Shown here: positions 1,168-14,001 of the stretch, one piece after another
How positions within the stretch are numbered: the first letter of the stretch is position 1
How the letters are laid out: every line of letters starts with the position of its first letter
Source: Dacryopinax spathularia
Lineage: Eukaryota > Basidiomycota > Dacrymycetes > Dacrymycetales > Dacrymycetaceae
Direction: 5' to 3'
Assembly (NCBI GenBank): GCA_037974965.1
Contig: JBBPFI010000003.1
Location: 310,001-374,000 of the forward strand
DNA: 64,000 bases
Notes under the pieces: model-generated
Seen by the model: the letters and a program-made list of their open reading frames with translations, nothing else
What the model was told of the DNA's origin: nothing
The model's database searches: none
Translations under genes and position numbers: made by a program

Positions 1168-1672
1168 GCTTGTGCAGCGCATCCCATCCGTTCCCCCGCG
1201 TTCCCCTTCCAACAGGGACGTTCTCGAGTATGGAGGAGGAGGGGGCAATTCAGTCGGGACGGGCACACATTTTTGAATACGGGCAGGGCCCGAACGGCGA
1301 AGCTATGCCAAAATTTTCAATTTTTACTAATTTTTATTACTTAGCTTTTCTTTTTATGTACTTAAAACTTGTATGTACGCTTAAATAGAGAAATAAAACA
1401 AAATTGCTTACCTTAATTGGGTTATAAGTCCGAGATAGGGTCCGGTTCTGGATGCGCGCCCAGAGCCAGATCCAGAACAATTGCCCGGATTCCTCACCTA
1501 TGTAGCACGGGAGGAAGCGAGGATCTGCGGCAGGGGCGAGGCTCGACCCCGTCGCGGAAACGGGAGCGTTTGCAAGGACCCCTGCATCCAGCGCAATCCA
1601 GCTCCCTAGGGTGCTTGTATACCTGATTAGGTAGACCCAAGGAGCATGTCTAGGTCTGTGCATGCACGCACA

Positions 1673-1696
1673 CGAGACCCATGCACCTTACTTGCC
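1673..1696 (+). repeat. Left copy of imperfect direct repeat flanking the transposon block
   Basis: Begins with CGAGACCCATG and ends with ACTTGCC. The partner at 10387-10414 has the same 11-base start and the same end, with a few inserted bases between. Confidence 0.4.
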
Positions 1697-1751
1697 AACA
1701 AGCATATTGATTACTTGGAGCCTGCCGGCAAGCCATCACACTCGTTCGACT

Positions 1752-2151
1752 ATGTCCTTGAATGCCATTGATCACCACGAATACGATTACTGGCTTCCTC
1801 GCCAAGGCACGTTTACCAAGCCCACGCTCTTCGAGGTCGGCAGCAACGGTTTCTCGTATGATCTTGCACCCAAGAAAGTCAATGTAGCCCTCATGGCCAA
1901 GAGGCGCTGGGCGCGAGCATTGGTGCATGTTTCTCTTGTTCTTGTACCAAGCTGACGACTTCTAGACATCGGGAACATCTCCGCGACTATCAACGAGACT
2001 ATTCAGCCAAGAAACGAGCTGAGGAGAAGGCGAAAAGGGCTGATTCACTAGCCCGACTCAAGAAGTACAAGGCTGAGCAACAAGCTGCTCACCGGGCGCG
2101 GGAAGAAGGCGCCGAGATCCTGCTTTTACTTGCAACCTCGACCAACGCGTA
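1752..2151 (+). CDS. Small transposon-borne ORF, basic coiled-coil protein (plus strand)
   Basis: I do not recognise this family. The first part opens at ATG 1752 (MSLNAIDHHEYDYWLPRQ) and runs to about 1922. The second part, about 1951-2151, encodes a highly charged helical stretch (YSAKKRAEEKAKRADSLARL) and ends in TAG at 2149-2151. A normal intron from GTGCAT (1923) to TAG (1965) does not keep the frame. Frame is kept only by an atypically short 28-nt intron (1923-1950), by a longer one from 1857, or by assuming a base slip. It ends 34 bp from the stop of the convergent gene at 2186-3759. Its position inside the transposon block suggests an accessory gene, possibly damaged. Confidence 0.45.
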
Positions 2152-2185
2152 GACAAGCACGCGTCTCTTGGTATTACTATTATAA

Positions 2186-3759
2186 TTATGAGGCCTCCCA
2201 AGGCACTCCAACTCTTGTATCCGTGTACCCCAACGTGGTGCCTAGTAGAGAATTCCAAGACATGTTACTAATATCCGCGAGTGCTGGTCGGCCCTCTTGG
2301 GCTGGCACAAGTGCTTGTTGTGCCTCTTGTCCATGAGGTGCAACAAGAGGCTGGAGGGACATGTTCCCGCTCAAAGCAGGATTGGGATCAAGACGCTTGC
2401 GCTTCTTGGACCGCGCTCCTTGCATCGGTTGCGAGAGCTGCACGTTTGGTCGACTGCCTGTTAAGTCGACTGCCATGCTGCCTCGGCTCGTGTCGTAGGG
2501 TTCACCTTCCTGGGTGCTTGAACGAGATGCTGGAAGCGATCGAGCACTCGGCATAGGAGCCGGAGGAGGTACTTGAGGCGACGAGACGACTTGAGGAATG
2601 GCGGGCACGGTGTCTAGCTCTTCTTGCCTGCGCTGGATTGCTCGTTGCTCCAGCTCGGCACCGGTCATCTTGCGAAAGAAGCACTTTCCAGCCTTGAGAG
2701 CGTCATGCACTTGCGAGAGCTGGGGTACATTTCGTATATCCGAGGGATTCACGAGGGCAGGTAACGGCCAGCCATGCAAGGTGATCTTGTACTTGTCTTC
2801 GATTTCTCGAGCAAATGCTTTGTAGGCCATCGTCGTCCGCTCGCCTTTTGTCGCTCGTTCTAGGCACCGTGGTCAGCACACGTCTTTGCTCTAGCGCGAC
2901 TTGCACGCACTGAGCCTAGCATCCAACATCACGCGGATCTCGTGCTTGAAGACGTTGGCACGAGATTGAGTTTTCTCGGCCGCCTCTGGGAAACACGTTA
3001 GATGTGATCTTGATCGCGATTGAGAAGCTGGATGCACGTCTAGCTCCCCCGCTCAAGGCCCATGACTCCAGTTCCAAACCCAAGTCTGTGATGGGTAACC
3101 CCAACACTTGCTCGAACCACTCGCGACAGATTGCGCTGCCGAAGTACTCAGGAGCTGCATAGTCATCTGGATGGCCTCGAAAGATGAACCCGCACATGTG
3201 GCCGCCCGTTCGGGTGTTGAAGTCTCGAGCTTGGTCGCGTAACAAGTCTTGCATGTGGTTCGTGTCGACGAGCCGCGACTGCCCAGGTAACCGCACTTGA
3301 TTCGCGCTGCGTTCTCGAGCAATGATGACAGCTTCTCGAGCTTGAGCCAGCCTGATGTCGTCCGAGTTATATTCGATCACACGAGACGCTACAGCAGCAT
3401 CGAAGTCGGCATCCCCAATCGCTCGAAATTTGCGGCCTAGGGCATGTCAGCCAGTGCACCGAGCCCATTCGACTACGAGCTCTCACACCTTGATCTCGCC
3501 ATTCACAAGCCACGCTGTGGCGAGCTGCATTCCAGACCGAGACACCCTCGTGCTTCCTCTTGATCCCCAAGCCATAGAAGTAGCCATGCAGGATTTCTCG
3601 TTTCATGCCTAGAGAGTCTGCCAAGGTGTCGAGACGACTCTCGATTTCAAGCCGCAGGTCGTAGATCGCATCACGAGCTTGCGCATGCTTGTCCCGGGTA
3701 CGAGCAGTGAGACTGGAACGGTGCGACCAGGATTTTACGGGGGTGGATACGCGAGGCAT
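2186..3759 (-). CDS. Transposon-borne accessory protein, 472 aa, function unknown
   Basis: Four exons: 3489-3759, 3038-3436, 2911-2985, 2186-2859; 472 residues with no internal stop. Start ATG at 3759 (MPRVSTPVKSWSH). The N-terminal part is helical and basic. The centre carries a well-ordered stretch, roughly residues 150-205, with GHPDDYAAPEYFGSA and EQVLGLPITDLGLELESW. A later segment reads KYKITLHGWPLPALVNPSDI, and the last 130 residues are Ser/Pro/Gln-rich with a KKRKR basic patch that could act as a nuclear signal. I recall similar proteins as multi-copy hypothetical genes in basidiomycetes but cannot name a domain. I see no JBP/TET dioxygenase motif. Intact splice sites and frame suggest recent or selected coding capacity. 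Role in the element unknown. Confidence 0.7.
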
Positions 3760-4199
3760 GTGTAGGACGAGATGTGACCGCGGTCATGTAATCGCATTCA
3801 CTCACTAGACGCGAGCCCTAGTCACGTGCACCATAACAATGCACGCTTCACGAGGTACGAGCACAACAACATGGTATTAGCGACACGGCTAGTAAGCGAG
3901 GAACTCTCGCAGAACATCATATGCAAGTACCATACATACTAGCTATTATTCGAGTATACACAGGGCTAGGAAGCGAGCGTCGGGTAGCGAGCGACGAGAC
4001 AAGCCGAGACAGTTCTTCACGATGCCGAGACATTTTTTTTGCTTGTTTTTGCTTGATGTTCTTGTAGTAGTACGAGAGTCGAGTCGAGAAAGAGCATTCC
4101 GAGTAATTTGAGAGCCATGATCCACGCGAGAGCCCAGAAACCGTGTTCCTACTGCCGTATGTTGCAAGTGACGTGACGAGGACCTCGACACCCCACGAC
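3760..4199. other. Spacer between two transposon-borne genes
   Basis: About 440 bp lie between the start of the 2186-3759 gene and the stop of the 4200-5867 gene. I see no ORF, repeat or RNA gene. It should contain the promoter of the former and the 3' end of the latter. Confidence 0.5.
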
Positions 4200-5867
4200 C
4201 TAAGCGCGACCTTCGTAATACGCGTTGAGCTTCTCGACTTGCATGACTTGCACGATGTCCTCGACCAGCTGAAGGAAGACGCTGGCCATAGACGCGCTCG
4301 AGGTCGGTGTCAAGGCATTCGAGTTGCGGGCGTCTGAGAGCAGGGTCGTGACACGTTCGTTCCAGAGACGAGGGGGGTCCCATGCATATATATGCGCGAT
4401 CTCGTCATAAATCGTGCGGATCGTGTGACGATCCACGATCTCGAGCTGGTGAAGCCAGCTGGCGATGACCTCCGTGACGACGCGAGGCAGGGGTCCAGGG
4501 GCCTCGGGCATGCGCCCGTACAAGCGACGAGGGCCTTCGCTCAAGAGGCGAGCAGCGAGGGAGCCAGACCTAGACGGCGTGAGGGGCTCGGAGTCCACAG
4601 CGGTCGAGGTAAACGGGGACGACTGCACTTGACGAGGAGTCGAGGGAGCGGGGAGCATCTCGACGCTCGTGGATTGCGTCATGCTATGACCCTTGGCCTT
4701 GGCCTTGCCCTTGCCCTTCGAGCCGCTTGGCGTCGGGGTGGAAGGCATCGTGGCCGCGGAGCTAGTAGAGCTCGTGCTCGTCGTGCGGGCCTGGGTTGCC
4801 GCCGCTTGACTCGATTGCTGTGTCATCGAGCGAGTGGTTCTGCGGTTGCTTTCTTCAGTCCTCGTCTCTTGACTGCCGAGAATCAAGTTGGCCGCGGGCC
4901 AGAAGTTACGAGGGTCAAAGGTGACCACGGAAGCGTGCGAGGTGCGTGCCCCAGACCCTGAGCCTTCGTTGCGCGCGTCACGAAACGCGGTCATGTCATT
5001 CGAGAAGGCGGCGAGGACGGCGTTCTCGAACAGCGAGATCATGCCTTGAATGATGGGCATATAGCCCGTGTCCCAGAGGAGGCGAGAGACGAAGGTCTCG
5101 GCAACCGGAGTATTCGTGGCCCCGTTGTCGTAGCGTCCTCCGATCCAGAGCTGGAGACTACCGCCGAGAAGTCGGTCGCTCACCGTCATCTAGGCACGAG
5201 TTAGCGAGGATCACGAAGCGAGTACAAGGGACGCACGATATCACGGATCTGAGGCGTGTACTCCTCGTACCACGTAATCCTACGCACACGACCGACGATC
5301 GGCACCTGCCACGGGTGCACATCGTGACCTGGAAGGTGGAGACCATCATGCATCGCGCCTGTGATCTGGCGAGGAGCAGTCGAGGCCCTAGCACGGTCTT
5401 CACGCCACGTGCTGCGGCTTGGGCCGCGAATAGGCTGGGCGGCAACCGAGGGCGCAGGATTAGGCCCGTTCGCGGGATGCAAGCCTTGCAAGGTCGCGAA
5501 CTGTACGAGCACAGGAATGGGCACGTGCTCGGTCGCGGCCGGTGCGAGCATCGAGGGCGCGGGCACCGCAGGTTGAGAGGAGGGAACAAGCAGAACTGTA
5601 TCGCGTTCACACGGTTAGCAAGAAGTGTGGCGATGAGGGGCGAGAGCACGCACCAGGAGTTCCGCGACCCGCAGGAGTTGCGCGGCCACCAGTCGCGTTG
5701 CCGCCCGAGGCTCCAATGGGCGGGAGAGGAGCCCAAGGGTTGGGCGCGCGTCCTTGTGAGCCTAGATGACATGAGTCATCGTGGCTAGAGCGCATATACG
5801 AGGACAAGTACTTACCACGAGGAGGTCCATGACCATGATCCGAGTTGTTGTCGTCGTCACTATCCAT
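4200..5867 (-). CDS. Transposon-borne accessory protein, 502 aa, function unknown
   Basis: Four exons: 5816-5867, 5654-5761, 5237-5595, 4200-5189; 502 residues, all GT-AG introns, no internal stop. The N-terminus is acidic then Gly/Pro/Ala-rich (MDSDDDNNSDHGHGPP). The centre has an ordered region containing VGRVRRITWYEEYTPQIRDI and LWDTGYMPIIQGMISLFENA. A Ser/Thr-rich linker with GSKGKGKAKAKG follows, and the C-terminal third ends in an ordered helical part (RHTIRTIYDEIAHIYAWDPP). No known domain is recognised. It lies between the transposase gene and the 2186-3759 gene on the same strand and shares their base style, so I infer it belongs to the same mobile element. Confidence 0.65.
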
Positions 5868-6629
5868 CCTTGTTGTTCTTGTCGAGTATGTCTTGTTTTG
5901 AAACCTTCCGAGTTGTTGTTCGAGGTCTTGTAATTCGAGGCGTCGAGAGATCGAGGAGGTCGGGAAGAAAGAAGGGAAGAGGGGACGCGTCTAGGGCGAG
6001 GGTTATATACGCGGCTCGCGCCACCCTGGCCCTAGCTTAGGCTCGATGCTTGCCACTGGCCACCCTCGATTCCTCGCCATTTTCCTAGCATCACTCCGCT
6101 TTTCTCGGTGGAACCTTGTCGCGAGCCAGTTGTTCTAGAAGCCAATCGCAAGTACCAAGTAAATAGGATGACGTGAGGCATGCTCCGCGAAGCATTAGAC
6201 AGATAGACGGCGTATTCCGCGAATCCTCAACTTGTCCCCTATTCTACTTGACTTCTATACATCTTGCTATCCGGCAACGGACCTTCCACTGATTCGATTT
6301 TGCTCAATTTTCGATACATTCTAGTAGCTAGTAATACAAGACTATTGCGCTAAATTTCAAGCTGTCGAAAGGCTTGATTGCCCCGATATCGTGAACATTA
6401 GATATCGTGCCCCATTTTCGAGCGGACCCTTGCCTCCTTCTGAGGTTCTCCACCATTCCGCTAGCAGAACCATCTTGTCATCCCGCATCTGGCAGATGCG
6501 GGATGACGAGGGGGACTCGGGACATCCACCCATATTTGTCCTGAGGCGGGAACTTGCCGAGTGTATACCGTGAATTCCGGGCATCGAACTAGAATACATG
6601 ACGCTTGCTACGGGGAACTCGTGCTGTAT
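5868..6629. other. Spacer between transposase gene and accessory gene, with a palindrome
   Basis: Non-coding stretch of about 760 bp upstream of the 4200-5867 gene and downstream of the transposase. It contains the 31-nt palindrome at 6477-6507 and a short direct repeat GATATCGTG (6386-6394 and about 6402-6410). If two elements abut here, this is where the junction would be. I see no gene. Confidence 0.5.
6477..6507. repeat. Perfect 31-nt palindrome (15-bp arms, 1-nt centre)
   Basis: Left arm GTCATCCCGCATCTG (6477-6491), single central G (6492), right arm CAGATGCGGGATGAC (6493-6507), the exact reverse complement. It sits in the non-coding gap between the transposase gene and the next transposon gene. 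Confidence 0.9.
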
Positions 6630-9600
6630 CTACATCGAGAGGTTCGAGAGCGCGTGACTCATGCGCTCAAACTCCTCGCGGCTTTCGTCATCGACTTCGC
6701 CCTCGGCTAGGTCATACAGTCCATCCTCGTCCACAGCAGGCTCGGCCTTGAGAGGCGGGGTGCTCGTTACGGGAGCATCTTCGTCGGTTCCAGAAGAACT
6801 CGATGACAGACGATGTGCACGCTTGCCGATGGTGGTCGTGCCCGTGTAGCCTGGCAACGCAAACAGGTCCACAAGGCGAGAGGCGGTAACTTGATCCACT
6901 CGCTGCCGAAATTCTAGGCGCTCACGCATCTCCGCTGCAAGAAGCAAGTCACCTGAAGCCTCCATGGCCTCGATCTTGGCCTTCATCGCGACCGGCTCAC
7001 GATGAATCGCCGTCCAGACTCGTCGCGCCTCGACATCTAGTCGCCGAATTTCCTCGCTTGCACAACGCACTAGAAGCCATTGTACAAGCATGGCGCGGAT
7101 CTGGGGGTTGGACCAGGCTCGTTCTCGGATGTCGTCACGTGAATATCGAAGGAGCGCGAAGTCCGAGAGCCAAGTGTACGCGAGCACTTGCTCCAACGTG
7201 AGTGTGGGCCGACCGACTCTAGTTGCGAGCGTGTTGTACTTCGCTAGAGCAGACCGGATCGCGTCGCTGCGCCGCTGCAGCGCCTCGCCAAGAGCGCGGC
7301 GCATCTTGTATCCTAGGTAGAGCTTGAAAATGAAACTCGGTGGCTCGAACAAAGCCCACTCACCAGTGCCACGCAAGTCCAGTTTCTCCAGCTCGAATAA
7401 GCGTTGGACCACGAGAGACTCGAGGGAATCGAGGGCGCGATTGTACTCTCGATAGTTTAGGTCATGTTCAGCTCGTTGCCACTCCACGCATTCTGGAGTC
7501 CACCGGGATGTGTTCAGCAGCCGCTCGTACCCCAGTGCGAGTTGTTCGAGCCGCTCGATGGTTTGTATACTTGCCACGTAATCTCGTTCAAGTGCCCGCG
7601 CCTTCTGATGCCCTGTGAGCGAACTCCACGTGGCGGGTGTCATGTGCACGAAGCCGTCGAATCCCGACTCTTGCAGCTTGCGCCTAGAAACGCGTGAGTC
7701 ATGTATGAGCCGAGGTATCACACTCAGCCATACTTAGCTGCCTCGAGAGACTGTAGTGTTTCGAGGTACTGGAAAACCAGCATGTCCTCCTCAGGCTCGG
7801 TCGCCAGCTGCTCGAAGTATGCCCGCTCCTTGTCGAGGAAGCGACTGAAGTCCGCGTCGCTGATGCCTCGCTCACGCTAGAATTTGACAACCGCGGGTTG
7901 GATCGTGGCTAGGATGTGCAGGGCTTGACAATAGTTGTCGAAAAGAAACTCGCCTGGTTTCTCGTCAGACCGAGAAACGAGGTGAGTCCCGAAACGCACC
8001 TAGAGACGCACGGCGATCCTCGTCCCACCTAGACCAAAAGAAGTGGAGCGACATGTGACGATGATATTGGGACGCGTGGCGATAGAGGTGGGCGGCAAGG
8101 TTCTGCTTCGAGAAAAGCCGCTTGTTGGTCTCGAAGTCCTCCAGCCCAGCTGTGGCGAGGAAACGCGGGTGGAACGCGAGTTGGCATTTGCGGTTATGCG
8201 CGTAGCCATGAAACGCGCCCACGAAGAAACGTAGCGCGAGTGACTGGGCTCGAGCACCTAGAGTGCTTCTCGCCACGGTTTTTGAATGCTCGCAACCGAT
8301 ATCGTAGCCCACCGCGACGCCGTGGCCGAAAACTTCAAGGATCTTGCTGAGGCAAGCAATCGAGTACTTCGCTCTATTACTTGTTGTGAGCTAGCTTCAG
8401 TTCATGACTGTCTTGCACTCACAGCTCGCCCGCCTGAATCATGTCCACAGACCACAAGACCATCCCATGACGGCAAGCCACGAGGAAGTTGCCCGTAGCA
8501 TGCAGAGCTTCCATCCAGTGGGAGCTCTTGTCCTTGGCTCGCCATGTTTTCCACTTGGACGTGCAAGCGTGCTCGGTCTTGCTCTCTTCGACACTCTCAG
8601 TCTTGCTATTGTTGAGCTCGACCGGCTCCGCACGCTTGCTTCTCTCGCTACACGTTGCGTTCTTGCCCGCCCGTTCCTCCTTGTAGACATCCACGAAATC
8701 CGGGCCTAGAATGTAGTCACTCGAGAACTCGCGCAAATCCTGGTATCCTGCGGCTAGGAACCGCTTGCTCAAGTTGTTTCCGTCCGCGGCCACGAGCTTG
8801 CTATGCGGAAGTACGGGCTCGCCCTCCAACTTGTATCGAGATGAGCGCGATCCCGACATGGCAGGCAAGGACTCACGCGATACTCGCATGCTGTGCATGA
8901 ATTCAAAGCTCGCCAATGAGGAGTATCCTGTCCGAAGCCCTTCTTGACAAGGCCTTGGACGTGCAGAAGGGTCTCAACCCAAGCATCATAAGCTTGACAA
9001 AGCTGGATGCGAAAGTAGCGCCGATAAGGTCTCTAGACCACGATCAGCTCGGAATGTTAGGTACGAGGGAGCACGTACTTGGTGAATATCGCACAGAATG
9101 CGAGCAAATGCTTCATGCGAGACATAAGCACGAACTCGACAATGGTGCAGAACTTCTAACAGGTCGAGTGAGATCGCGACCCTTGGCAAGTCGGGCGTGC
9201 AAGGGAAGAAGCCGCGCTCGACGAGATGCGTGAGCAGATTCTCGCTGACACGGCTACAGCGAAATTCCCGCATCTCCACCTCTGTCGCAAGATCAGCGAG
9301 ACCCTCGTTCATCTGCAATCGTGACGTACGTTTCCAAGTCACAATCTGCAAGCGCGCTACCGTGCCCATCTCGTCGTCCTGCTCGTCCTCTTCTGCACCT
9401 CGAGGGGCCTGGCTTTCGGCGAATCTCGTTGGATCGTGCTTCCATGCGAGTAAAGCACGAGCCAGGGCGGGGGTAGCGCGACGCCAGCGGCTAGCCATAG
9501 ATGCTAGCTTCTCAGCATATGCACCCTGACCCCTAGCATAGTGCCCATGTCGACCGCGAGCTCTGGCTGTCTAGTTAGTATAGTGGAGCACGTCACAGGC

Positions 9601-10154
9601 CACGAGCAAACCTGCATCGTCGCCATAGCTGGCACAAGCTCTCGTATCGCTCAGTTCTCGCTGACAACAGCTCGTCCACCTCGATTTCCCAGTCCTCATC
9701 GTTCGTTGGCATGGTGCCGATTGCCTGGTCAGGTTCGGCAGCGAGCGTGCCGAGGTCGAGATCAACGTCGTCGAGATCCATAGTTGTAGTGTTAGGGGCG
9801 TAAGTGTCACCGAGATATCGTAGTGCTTCGGCTTCCTCGGGTCGAGCTGCTCAAGGTGAGCCCAAGTGACGAGCGGGACTCTAGGCGGAACTCACTAGTT
9901 TCTCGTTTGAGTCTTTCGCCATTCAGTCGATCCTTGTACGCGTAGATGGCTTTGAAGTTCAAGGTCTCCCGTTTCGCGGCCGAGATTCGATCGGGCAAGC
10001 CTGCTTGATACTGGTAAGGAGCCCGTCGGTTCTGCTTGCGTCGTCGAGTGGCCGAGTCCTCGAATTCCGCTATGCGAAAGGCTCTGGAGGTCGAGCCACA
10101 CTGCGACCCGGAACTCGCCCTTCCGGAGAGTGTCGATGAGCGAGAGGTGGACAT
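6630..10154 (-). pseudogene. KDZ transposase gene with one in-frame stop
   Basis: Eight exons: 9896-10154, 9612-9846, 9079-9490, 8877-9002, 8423-8829, 8000-8373, 7734-7953, 6630-7683; 1029 codons. A cysteine-containing segment of CxC1 type (EFRCSRV...RGFFPCTPDLP) lies near residues 240-265. The catalytic core has AADGNNLSKRF (D about 360), VGYDIGC (D about 504) and GLEDFETNKR (E about 561), flanked by SACRHG-like VACRHGMVLW and HGYAHNRKCQ, as known in KDZ transposases. A TAG at 7877-7879 interrupts codon 630, after the DDE core. The rest of the frame to 6630 stays open and conserved in style. A truncated protein would keep the core but lose the helical C-terminal 400 residues. One spliced join (9612 to 9490, 121-nt intron) is less certain. 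The catalytic step is DNA strand cleavage and transfer at element ends. Confidence 0.8.
7877..7879 (-). other. In-frame TAG in the KDZ transposase
   Basis: In exon 7 the frame reads VVKF-stop-RERGISDADF and then continues open for 399 codons across one further intron. No GT-AG intron of plausible length removes it. It is most simply a single substitution in an otherwise preserved gene. Confidence 0.75.
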
Positions 10155-10386
10155 GGGGAAACGCGTATGCTGTCGTCGCGGCTAGGGTCGTGTCACGTGC
10201 CTTGATATTGGCTGCTTGCCTTCAAACCCGTCAAGTAGAGACTTGGAAGGCGGACTCAAGGCAATCTAGGTACCCAAGCTATCGGGTGTTGCTTGTCGAG
10301 CGATTAGACGGCCGATTCACCACTAGAGAGACGCGACGTAAACGCGTAAACTGTAGTATGATACCTAGCTAGTACATGACTGATCC

Positions 10387-10414
10387 CGAGACCCATGTCG
10401 CGCCTTCACTTGCC
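10387..10414 (+). repeat. Right copy of imperfect direct repeat flanking the transposon block
   Basis: Shares CGAGACCCATG at its start and ACTTGCC at its end with 1673-1696. Confidence 0.4.
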
Positions 10415-11111
10415 TCATTAGGGATGCAAGTGCTGGAATAGCTGGAATGCGGGGTCCTGCATACTGCTCGCGGTTCCGCGACGGGGTCGAGGCGCGCCCC
10501 CCTCCCGGATGCAAGTGAAAATCCAGTCGTCACGGGTGGGATTCCTGAGCGTCCTCGCGTGGCTTGAGCAGAACAGCCACCAACTCCACGTGAAAACACG
10601 GTCTGAAGTCGCGACGTAACCTCCGAACGAGCGTCAAACGGAGGCAGAAGTGATGCTTCTGTCGCACACGCTGGCCCTTTCAGGTGGTGGTCCCCTTCAA
10701 TTCCCCCAATCGTCCAATCATCGTAAGCTCGCCCCCCCTCAACTGGCAGCGGCGATAGCCCATCCGGGGCTGGCAAAACGTACGAAATCCGGAAATCGAA
10801 TGTATGCGCTGTCTCGCCAACTTCTTGGGAGGTGCATTCCCGCGGGTGGATGGTGAAGGGGGAGGGGGGCTTCGTAACTATTTTGGATCCCCCTGCTTCG
10901 ATGGAGGGGAGGGGATTGGATGATCTGACGTAGTCTTGCAACCCGGCGGGGATACGCGCTCCTTCCGCCCGTCAGCCATCAGCGATCAATCTCCCGCCGA
11001 ACCCACGCACGCAGCTGTGCACCGGCCGAATGCAGAGCACGGCATCCCACCATGTCAACCATATGTCATCAATCAATCATCGGCAGCTCCGCAGGCGGGC
11101 ACTGATGGGCG

Positions 11112-11119
11112 TATATAAA
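11112..11119 (+). promoter_or_regulatory. TATA-like element
   Basis: TATATAAA lies 81-88 bp upstream of the ATG at 11200, in GC-rich surroundings, at a spacing usual for fungal TATA boxes with a short 5' leader. Confidence 0.6.
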
Positions 11120-11199
11120 TGCTGGCACCGTCGACAAGTCACTCCCTTATCGACTCTTGCTCTCCTTCCCACCACCACCCATCACCCCGCGGAAGGACA

Positions 11200-14001
11200 A
11201 TGGATAACAAGCAGTATTATGCACCTCCACCGGGGACGCCACAGCAGTATGCGGCTCAGAGGGGGTCGCAGCAATACCCTCAGCAGCAGCAACAGCAGCA
11301 AGGCGGCTACTACGCTCCTCCAGGAGGGATGCCGCCCCCTCCGTCATACACCATGACTGCCTCCGGCTCCGGGTCGTCCTCCTCCTCTTCGAGCCGTCCT
11401 TCCCAGTCGGGCCCCGTAGTCCGGCGCACCGACCCAAGCGGCCGCACCTCGAACGAGCAAGACGCCCCGCCCAAATACACCGAAGAAGATGCTGCCGCCT
11501 TATGGCCTAACATGCCCCCTCCGCCTCCACGCCCGATCGCGCGCCTGCAAATCCCCGTATGCATACCCCAAGTCACGGCAAAGTTCGACAGTCAGTTCGC
11601 GCGCGCGTACTCGCCCGAGCTGCAGAAAGTGGGGATTGGGATGAAAGACTGGCTGGACTTTGTTGATGGGCTTAATATCGCGATCGTCTCCAGTCCGCCG
11701 TTGCGTGTGGTGGATATGGCCGGTCAGCTCGTTGGCTTCGTGTACGTCCCCTATTCACCCCTTTGCCAAAGTATATGCGTACTGATTCGCTGGCTCGATG
11801 CAGCCCGTGGCACTGGGCGATGCTAACCCAAATGCTGATCCAAACCTCGGCCCAAGTCGTCGAGCACGTCATCTCCAAGTCCCTCTCGGACAAGTACCTC
11901 CGGCGCGCGAACCAGCAGTTCTTCGAGCCCCGGGGCGTACGGGTCAGGCTGTGCAAGACGGCTGCTATGCGCGTCCTGGTGGGGAAAGACCAGCCGCAGG
12001 AAGATGAGAGTAAGGCGCTCAAGATTGCGAAGGGGATTGGGATGGGTATCGAGAATGTCGCCCTTACAATGCCTATCCCGTTCGCCTCCCGTATCATTGA
12101 GGCCATCCATGGCCCGCTCGCTCCGGTCGATTACAACTCCGGCCTTACCGTGACGCAGCGCAGGATGCAAGACCTGCAGGGCTTCATCGCCCCACTGCAA
12201 TTCGACAACCTCCCGCCCGTCAAGAACCCCGAGGACATCCTGGGCAAGATGAACGCCATAAGCGTAAAGATGGACATCGGCTTTGCCCAAAAAGCGGATA
12301 AGAAGAACAACCAGCGTCGGCGGCTTCTGGCCATCCGAACGGGACAGGAAACGTTCACCCCCGGGTTGTCGTCCGCAACGGCGAGCATGTCGAACCTCAG
12401 CTTGAGCCCGAGCTCGTCCAGGTCTGGACCGCCGTCGCCCAACTCGCAGGCTAGGTCCGCCCCGCCCTCTCCCGGGAGATATGGCCAGCAAGGGTTGGCA
12501 CCGCAGGGTGCACCAGTGCCGTATGTCCAACAAGGGCCGCAGGGGCAGTATGGCCAGCAAGGGCAAGGACAATATGGACCGAACGGACCGAACGGGTATG
12601 GTCAGCAGGTGCAAGGACAAGGGCAGTACGGCCCGAATGGACAGGTCGAGCGTGGGAGGAGCGGTGCGCCGGGAGGTTATGGGCCGCCGCCTGGGGCGCC
12701 TGGGCAGTATGGTCAGCAGCAGGGAGGGTATGGTCAGCAGCCTGGTGGATATGGGCAGCAGGGCGGTTATGGACAACAGGGCGGCTATGGCCAACAAGGA
12801 GGATATGGCCAACAAGGCGGTTATGGCCAGCAGCAAGGAGGCTATGGTCAGCAACCCGGTGGTTATGGTCAACAAGGCGGCTACGGCCAACAGCCCGGCT
12901 ATGGTCAACAAGGAGGCTACGGCCAACAGCCCGGCTATGGTCCTCAACCGGGGTACGGCGCCCCCCCACCCCCAGCACGCGAGACCTCCCGCGAGCGCAA
13001 GAAACGCCAGAAAGAAGAAAAGCGCGCCCGCTCACGCGAGAAGAAAGAACGTTCTCGTGAACGGAAGCGGGAGAAGTCGCGCGAGAAGGATATGAAGCGA
13101 CATCCGGAGCGGTATGCGCAGCAGAACCAGTATGGGCCTGGTGGCGCTGGCGGCTATGGAGGAGGGTATGGAGCACCTCCTGGGCAGTATGGACCTCCTC
13201 CCGGGCAATATGGGCCTCCTGGTCAGTACGGTCCTGCGGGTCAGTACGGACCGTCGCCTGGGCAATATGGACCTCCGGGTCAATACGGCCCTGGAGGCTA
13301 CTACAACCAACCCCGCGGCCGCGAAACCAGCAAAGAGCGCAAAGACCGCGAGAAGCGCGAGAAGAAAGACCGCGAGCGTGCGCGTTCTCTCGAGAAAAAG
13401 GAAGCGAAGCGTGCCAAGTCCCGCGAGAAACACGCCGGCGAAGACCAGTACAAAGCCGAGAAACGGATGCTTGACGAGCAAGAGCGTATGCTCAAGAAAG
13501 AAGAGGACCGGCTCAAAGGCGAGAGGAACGCGCGGTTCTTCAATGGTCTGGGAGGGGGCGATCAGGGGCCTGCGCCGACGAGGACGGTGGACGATGTCAA
13601 GTTTGAGCAGGATATGATCAAGGCGCAGAAGAAGGCGCTTAAGGACAAGTATGAGGGGAAGGAAGAGGATGGTGGGCTGCTCAAGCGGAGGGTGCTGAAG
13701 GCCGATCGGCTGGAGTATAACCAGACTTGGGATCTGGTTTGGCTCGTCGTGATCGATATTGACAGAGGTCAGTTTCTTTTTCCTGTTGTTTCGTTGATGT
13801 TCGCTGATTTCGTTTGCAGACAATGAGATCAACGGCAAGGACGTCGTCGACAACGACGACGACGTCGAAGTCGTGAAGGAGGACGACTGGAGGGAGGTAG
13901 TCAAAGCCGAACGCCGCGAAGACGAGACCTACCTCCGCGGGGAGAAAGAGCGCGGAGGGATGAAAGACTCCGAGGAGGATGTCCTCGCTCGGTACAGCTG
14001 A
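11200..14001 (+). CDS. Prion-like, RE-rich low-complexity protein, 895 aa, function unknown
   Basis: Exons 11200-11741, 11804-13767, 13820-14001. Start [11 protein letters not shown] chosen because the upstream in-frame ATG at 11119 lies at the TATA element. Order: Q/P/S-rich N-terminus; an ordered domain about residues 105-310 ([48 protein letters not shown]), the only well-conserved part; a Ser/Pro linker; a GGYGQQ array (about 480-570); an Arg/Glu/Lys block of SRERKK type; a GQYGPP array; a second RERK block; a helical charged region; a C-terminal [11 protein letters not shown] motif with acidic tail shared with the partial gene at 3-302. GYGQQ arrays with RE blocks resemble proteins that form condensates, which is inference. 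The ordered domain recalls basidiomycete hypothetical proteins without assigned role. Confidence 0.85.
12702..12965 (+). repeat. Coding tandem repeat, GGYGQQ array
   Basis: About fourteen units of 15-21 bp encode GGYGQQ or PGYGQQ variants in frame within the 11200 gene. Third positions vary (GGCTAT, GGATAT, GGTTAT), so the array is kept at protein level and not from a very recent DNA expansion. A second, shorter GQYGPP array lies at about 13180-13300. Confidence 0.85.

Follow-up and report, generated by a model that had tools for sequence, protein, structure and literature searches.

A multi-gene KDZ transposon lineage in Dacryopinax spathularia with a fixed-distance terminal module and body-wide sequence words

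The element and its genes

The window, a 64,000-nucleotide stretch of the Dacryopinax spathularia genome (contig JBBPFI010000003.1, positions 310,001 to 374,000), contains a complete KDZ element of 9044 bp at 1495-10538, which begins with CACC, ends with GGTG and carries a KDZ transposase gene together with three further genes, here called A, B and S. These limits come from the comparison of copies and from empty sites, and they replace the block at 1673-10414 given in the original prediction, which had been made from the letters of the window. The searches of fungal genomic DNA covered this one genome (29.2 Mb), where the window element (C3w) has ten relatives named by contig: C13, C12, C15a, C15b, C7, C16, C21, C5, C14 and C2. 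The genome search scores the best candidates only, so that absences from it are not strict.

The transposase gene lies on the minus strand at 6633-10154, with nine exons and its ATG at 10154. Two open reading frames (ORFs) within it match the KDZ family PF18758 of Pfam, 7965-8390 at E 2.5e-39 and 8419-8973 at E 7.8e-18 (135.6 and 65.4 bits against a curated cut-off of 26.6), bearing out the transposase that had been predicted. The ORF at 8986-9570 matches CxC3, a KDZ-associated cysteine cluster found upstream of KDZ, at 27.7 bits, barely above its cut-off of 26.6, and the scores of CxC1 and CxC2 fell below their cut-offs in the Pfam scan of window pieces. One in-frame TAG at 7879-7877 makes the window transposase look broken. 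The KDZ models of C5, C14 and C15a have no stop or frameshift; the eight other models contain one to four each. Some of these may reflect faulty modelling of the variable N-terminal region, which the C2 model does not include.

Gene B (502 amino acids) occupies 4200-5867 on the minus strand, with exons at 5867-5816, 5761-5654, 5595-5237 and 5189-4200, and gene A (472 amino acids) lies at 2186-3759 on the same strand, with exons at 3759-3489, 3436-3038, 2985-2911 and 2859-2186. As predicted, both are intact multi-exon genes on one strand, with GT-AG introns and no stop in the window; the C16 copy of A carries a frameshift. Neither protein matches a known Pfam family or, by sequence, a PDB family, and A was not found in viral contigs. 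A 31-amino-acid match between B and gp120 in the PDB (E 0.00046) was treated as chance. Proteins resembling A are presumably common in mushroom-forming fungi. The prediction that the element carries no TET/JBP motif agrees with the Pfam scan, which gave no such match among the ten pieces scanned, KDZ exons 1-2 lying outside them.

The small gene S lies on the plus strand at 1752-2152, with two putative exons at about 1752-1928 and 1957-2152. Its opposite orientation had been correctly anticipated, and the C13 copy, read by eye, is a clean two-exon gene; in the window no ordinary GT-AG intron was found that joins both exons in frame.

Ends, target site and movement

C16 and C21 both start and finish with CACCTATG and are bordered by perfect 8-bp duplications, as copy comparison revealed. 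Applied to the window, this end rule gives 1495-10538 with GGATTCCT on either side, at 1487-1494 and at 10539-10546. The left flank (1000-1494) is part of a repeat of about 0.5 kb with four other copies, 82-94% identical, and these four copies are empty sites: each continues into the right flank of the window with a single GGATTCCT and no insert. The whole block is thus a single insertion of one DNA transposon. The match of the empty copies to the right flank is short, 18-24 bp including GGATTCCT (GAGCGTCCTC, or, in two of them, GCGCGTCCTC), as the repeat copies diverge there; the copies (L029-L032, one each on C4 and C15 and two on C10) stay alike for some 10-16 bp beyond the insertion point before they diverge.

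A scan for an 8-bp duplication next to CACC and GGTG returned one candidate at 8 of the 11 loci and none at three. Of these three, C14 and C15a have CAC...GTG ends and perfect 8-bp duplications that differ between the two. Altogether, comparison of the insertions, proposed as a check in the original prediction, resolved the ends of 10 of the 11 elements, all ten with perfect 8-bp duplications, CAC at the start and GTG at the end; the ends of C2 were not found by the end and duplication scans. Terminal inverted repeats (TIRs) show 63% identity over 70 bp, ungapped, in the window and 100% over 120 bp in C21, and self-inverted blastn detected them in 6 of the 11 elements, with no match for C5, C13, C14, C15a and C2. 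C14 and C15a are 99.84% identical across 8690 bp, and this near-identity at different 8-bp duplications, together with the identical terminal repeats of C21, speaks for recent movement. A non-autonomous copy bearing the C21 terminal repeat was sought and rejected, as the genome search gave the ends of C21 and C16 only.

The flanks had been read as two halves of a host paralogue pair, for which a single 15-amino-acid match (E 0.02) was found; there is no nucleotide match between them. Adjoining the right flank, the window at 11119-13826 holds ORFs with long Gly/Gln/Tyr-rich repeats followed by Lys/Arg/Glu-rich stretches.

Constant companions of the transposase

From 52 KDZ matches genome-wide we derived 29 KDZ loci, of which 16 were examined as DNA of at least 9.5 kb (11 having A and B and 5 lacking them), three as 3.7-kb loci (L001-L003) and ten as matches only. 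Spliced alignments placed KDZ, B and A in identical order in all 11 elements of the lineage, with a similar exon layout of A. Of the four genes whose joint recurrence the original prediction had raised as a possibility, these three recur strictly, and S was detected in 5 of the 11 elements (the window, C13, C7, C12 and C15b), in C12 and C15b at E 0.0005-0.003. In C14, C15a and C2, B takes a divergent form: over its full length it matches the window protein weakly (score 144-165), but its core aligns.

The original prediction had asked whether the accessory genes also sit at host loci lacking a KDZ gene, which would have refuted it; within this genome they do not. A has matches at 12 loci, 11 of which adjoin a KDZ gene with the gene order unchanged, and B occurs at the same 12, at C5 by spliced alignment only. 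The twelfth locus (C9:716.8-719.4 kb) is damaged: a stretch of about 1.5 kb breaks its A, B lies next to it and the matches contain in-frame stops; no KDZ was found within 9.9 kb of this remnant. Genome-wide searches gave no A or B match near the 18 other KDZ loci, and the five of them examined as DNA contain neither gene, with one chance-level match of 18 amino acids (E 0.37). These five belong to another KDZ lineage in an in-genome tree whose outgroup alignment is partly poor. Two similar KDZ matches at L001 and L002 (C6:1237074 and C7:249807), with two in-frame stops each, apparently represent another KDZ group.

The ratio of non-synonymous to synonymous substitution (dN/dS) of A is 0.047 between C12 and C15b and 0.046 between C12 and C7, the two pairs on which we rely; C3w/C13 (0.057) and C14/C2 (0.064) have dS near the limit. 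For the transposase the ratio is 0.11 (C12/C15b) and 0.080 (C12/C7), with C3w/C13 and C14/C2 saturated, and for the core of B it is 0.042 (C12/C15b), 0.10 (C12/C7), 0.17-0.20 (C14/C2, C3w/C13) and 0.32 (C21/C16). C16 was omitted from the A and KDZ ratios because of a frameshift in both models, and C16, C15a and C15b from the A1 protein alignment. In the two reliable pairs the constraint on A is no weaker than that on the transposase, so that A is probably needed for the spread of the element. This argues that A is a working part rather than a passenger, and that the accessory genes, originally taken for cargo, behave as conserved helpers.

A terminal module of fixed length

The left terminal module of the window element (1495-1604, plus strand) has CACC at 1495 and TCCAGC at 1587 (93 bp from the end) and at 1597 (103 bp). 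In the right one (10429-10538, minus strand) CACC runs from 10538, and TCCAGC begins at 10446 (93 bp from the end) and at 10437 (102 bp). Across the resolved elements TCCAGC starts at position 93, in ungapped register, in 16 of 20 termini, and 10 of these 16 have another TCCAGC at 102-104. TCCAGC lies within 250 bp of the end in 19 of 20 termini, against 2.2 expected and a maximum of 8 in 500 resamplings. All 10 occurrences of the pattern CACC-N88-TCCAGC-N3-6-TCCAGC in 29.2 Mb are at ends of these elements, and its reversed control does not occur at all. Between subfamilies (47 pairs, 11 termini) identity is 42% at positions 9-90 and 24% at 111-200; the length of the module is thus kept while its sequence drifts.

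Among 130 symmetry centres tested in 13 termini (C16, C15a, C15b and one C21 terminus being left out), the top three were 64.5, 47.0 and 29.5 bp, the outer two lying 17.5 bp to either side of 47. Complementarity at these centres is higher within a terminus (0.68-0.70) than between termini (0.47-0.56), which suggests covarying change. A strong palindrome (score of at least 9) is present in 8 of 20 single termini, compared with 4% of the 123 windows taken from element interiors. The terminal module is a candidate binding architecture for the transposase, judged by these sequence patterns.

Words that fill the body of the elements

The CGAG-rich style noted in the original prediction proved real and general. 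In the window, CGAG and CTCG together reach 29.1/kb inside the element and 11.9/kb in 10546-64000, the window outside the element serving as host background for the word counts. Densities of 25-32/kb hold for C3w, C13, C12, C15b, C7, C16 and C21, against about 12/kb in the host and 13-17/kb under a first-order Markov expectation. Other subfamilies bear other words: C5 has CAAG at 34/kb against 8.9, with CGAG not enriched, and C14, C15a and C2 have TCCGGA at 5.3-8.8/kb against 0.24 and TCCAGA at 7.0-7.1 against 0.75. For C2 approximate limits were used in the density, spacing and enrichment counts.

Word density changes as a step at the element ends. CGAG and CAAG saturate 1495-10538, with 19-31 per 500 bp on both strands in the 18 inside bins against a mean of 10.4 outside, where 108 bins range over 3-21 and two reach 19. 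In C14, likewise, each of the 16 bins lying entirely inside holds 7-11 TCCRGA, the two cut by the ends hold 4 and 2, and those outside 0-2.

The words also exceed what the encoded proteins call for. Under a null in which synonymous codons are shuffled while protein and codon usage are kept (both strands counted, so that the palindrome TCCGGA counts twice), coding TCCRGA in C14 numbers 111 against 18.6 (standard deviation 5.0), coding CGAG 191 against 119.6 (8.0) in the window and 142 against 88.3 in C12, and coding CAAG in C5 123 against 56.4 (5.3), whereas CTAG in the window (46 against 35.4) is not significant. An unbiased word scan of five elements ranked the same words, or parts of them, at the top. 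In C14, TCCRGA is as dense in coding sequence, with the long probable B ORF counted as coding, as elsewhere (15.9 and 15.4/kb), and its introns hold 11 sites in 541 bases.

The 137 TCCRGA sites of C14 have almost no information in their flanks, fall into position classes of 48, 47 and 42, and show no interval below 18 bp or above 154 bp; the coefficient of variation of the intervals, 0.47, is below that of all 2000 random placements. A strict period of about 27 bp was not above the null, and Tandem Repeats Finder reported no tandem repeats for C14. As for conservation, CGAG is retained at 65 of 156 sites between C3w and C13 (control words 13-31%) and at 142 of 220 between C12 and C7 (controls 39-53%), and CAAG at 28 of 96, inside the control range; TCCRGA is retained at 46 of 83 between C14 and C2, where control words were too few to judge.

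Beyond these elements, L039 (C3:2007000-2007900) has 10 TCCRGA sites in 901 bp with no KDZ, A or B match and is perhaps another element sharing the word, and L041 and L042 (C8:520.2-521.1k and C8:1073.1-1074.0k) are short inverted repeats built on GCTTCCGGA and TCCGGAAGCAAA. The KDZ lineage lacking A and B (L033-L037, at C8:1136-1145k, C9:149-158k, C15:352-362k, C5:1617-1627k and C13:404-413k) is enriched in ACGT, 5.2-9.5/kb against 3.3 in stretches whose element ends are not fixed, and AACGTT has 19 and 13 copies in two of its loci. This suggests that it, too, has a body word of its own.

Discussion

In the published descriptions cited here, Zisupton elements combine a KDZ transposase with an upstream cysteine cluster, TIRs and 8-bp target-site duplications (TSDs) (PMC12730594), all of which recur in the elements described above, although here A and B are constant companions of the transposase. 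Two Kyakuja families of Laccaria are described with 7-bp TSDs, CA..TG termini and no TIRs (PMC12730594); all 10 resolved elements share such termini, whereas their TSDs are 8 bp and 6 of the 11 elements have detectable TIRs. The elements combine termini of the Kyakuja type with a duplication length of the Zisupton type, a comparison made by descriptions, with the tree confined to this genome. Extra genes are known from the Kyakuja, Dileera and Zisupton elements of fungi that carry TET/JBP (PMC12730594), a domain not found in the pieces scanned here. KDZ1-KDZ3 of Cryptococcus, mobile elements of 9-11 kb with TIRs of 139-241 bp and TSDs of 8 bp (KDZ1) or 4-8 bp (KDZ2, KDZ3), resemble ours in size, TIRs, TSDs and mobility, and the cited account describes them with KDZ and CxC1 domains only (PMC12810828). 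For Pleurotus, 36 KDZ elements are reported, and CxC2 accompanies the intact ones (PMC7641404). Accessory genes in fungal KDZ elements are already known; our limited literature search (including PMC9297572) found neither a fixed-distance TCCAGC nor body-wide words in descriptions of KDZ elements.

The window element is a copy of a multi-gene cut-and-paste KDZ transposon, and we consider it probable that it combines its transposase with helpers for self-recognition. Its being a cut-and-paste KDZ element explains the ends, duplications and recurrence; to account for the helpers and the words, something more is required. The terminal module would be bound by the KDZ transposase, for which TCCAGC at 93 and about 103 bp would serve as the ruler-like core site and the dyads near 29.5, 47 and 64.5 bp as sites specific to each subfamily; the transposase would cut at CACC/GGTG and insert with an 8-bp stagger. 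A, B or both may be DNA-associated helpers that recognize the element as self through its dense body word, either keeping it open against host silencing or aiding assembly of the transposition complex. AT-hook-like stretches of A, namely RKRGRPRK in C12 and C7, fit a DNA-associated role and prove nothing. With the stop in its KDZ model, the window copy would now depend on other copies.

The closest precedent for words and helpers together is probably VANDAL/VANC of Arabidopsis, in which, according to the cited account, silencing marks are removed by a protein that the transposon itself encodes and that binds a motif densely present in its family; a related family uses other motifs (PMC5735166). 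An element-dense short motif that differs between relatives is common to both systems. The VANDAL motifs are described as mainly non-coding and often in tandem repeats (PMC5735166), whereas here the words fill exons, C14 has no reported tandem repeats, the superfamily is another one and the reader protein is putative. By this analogy, each KDZ lineage might write its own address word from end to end, exons included, which A or B would read to recognize and to protect or mobilize its own lineage, an exon-embedded fungal counterpart of VANC anti-silencing in which word and reader co-diverge, with the 93-bp terminal ruler in addition; we offer this extension tentatively, as a possibility short of an even chance.

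Several observations weigh against self-recognition through words and module. Any link of A or B to a DNA word is putative. The AlphaFold model of A has a poor core (predicted local-distance difference test, pLDDT, 51), and its N-terminal 90-amino-acid model (pLDDT 79) has no PDB fold match, the best at E 4.6. Four of the 20 termini depart from position 93, with TCCAGC at 83 (C16), at 103 (C14, C15a) or absent (C16), and 12 of 20 stand out less clearly as palindromes. Even word spacing is clear in the near-identical pair C14/C15a only; the word of C2 is not evenly spaced, with a 1108-bp gap, and spacing in the CGAG group is mostly random. TCCGGA triplets occur at nine places, none of them in C2 and five outside these elements, at short loci with no KDZ, A or B match.

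A serious competitor, though one we would not call likely, is that A and B help transposition in the ordinary way, as DNA-binding accessory subunits of the kind present in other two-component DNA transposons, and that the words arose independently of them as a by-product of composition or mutation. This would suit constant KDZ partners under purifying selection, and the first-order Markov expectation does explain part of the CGAG excess; yet coding TCCRGA, CGAG and CAAG exceed the codon-preserving null, lineages of one genome bear different words, C14 lacks any interval below 18 bp, and CGAG, though not CAAG, is conserved above control words. We think it unlikely that the words are instead avoidance or context marks, left by a host or element process of DNA modification, methylation or small RNA that enriched CGAG/CAAG, CAAG, TCCRGA or ACGT. 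The CAAG of C5 without CGAG, as loss of CG could give, and the ACGT-rich other lineage would accord with such a process, but acting genome-wide it would affect all elements alike, whereas the words differ by subfamily, and the palindromic TCCGGA, with flank information near nil and a minimum spacing, is unlike a mutational footprint.

That A, B and S are hitch-hiking cargo of host origin seems highly improbable. Their multi-exon structure and the absence of any transposase domain found in them could be read that way, but every A and B match lies within a KDZ element or the damaged C9 remnant, the order is fixed, and between C12 and C7 the dN/dS of A is not above that of KDZ. The suggestion that two unrelated insertions meet near 6.3 kb we rule out, with next to no residual credence: the empty sites record one insertion, one 8-bp duplication surrounds the whole block, and the same order recurs in 10 other elements.

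This genome provides ten elements with defined ends, which fall into five subfamilies, along with a precise grammar of the termini and genes that are candidate helpers. An exon-wide word denser than codon usage explains would be an unusual form of selection on coding sequence, in which genes double as a recognition tag. If a helper does read the word, self-recognition by motif density would extend outside plants and to another transposon superfamily.

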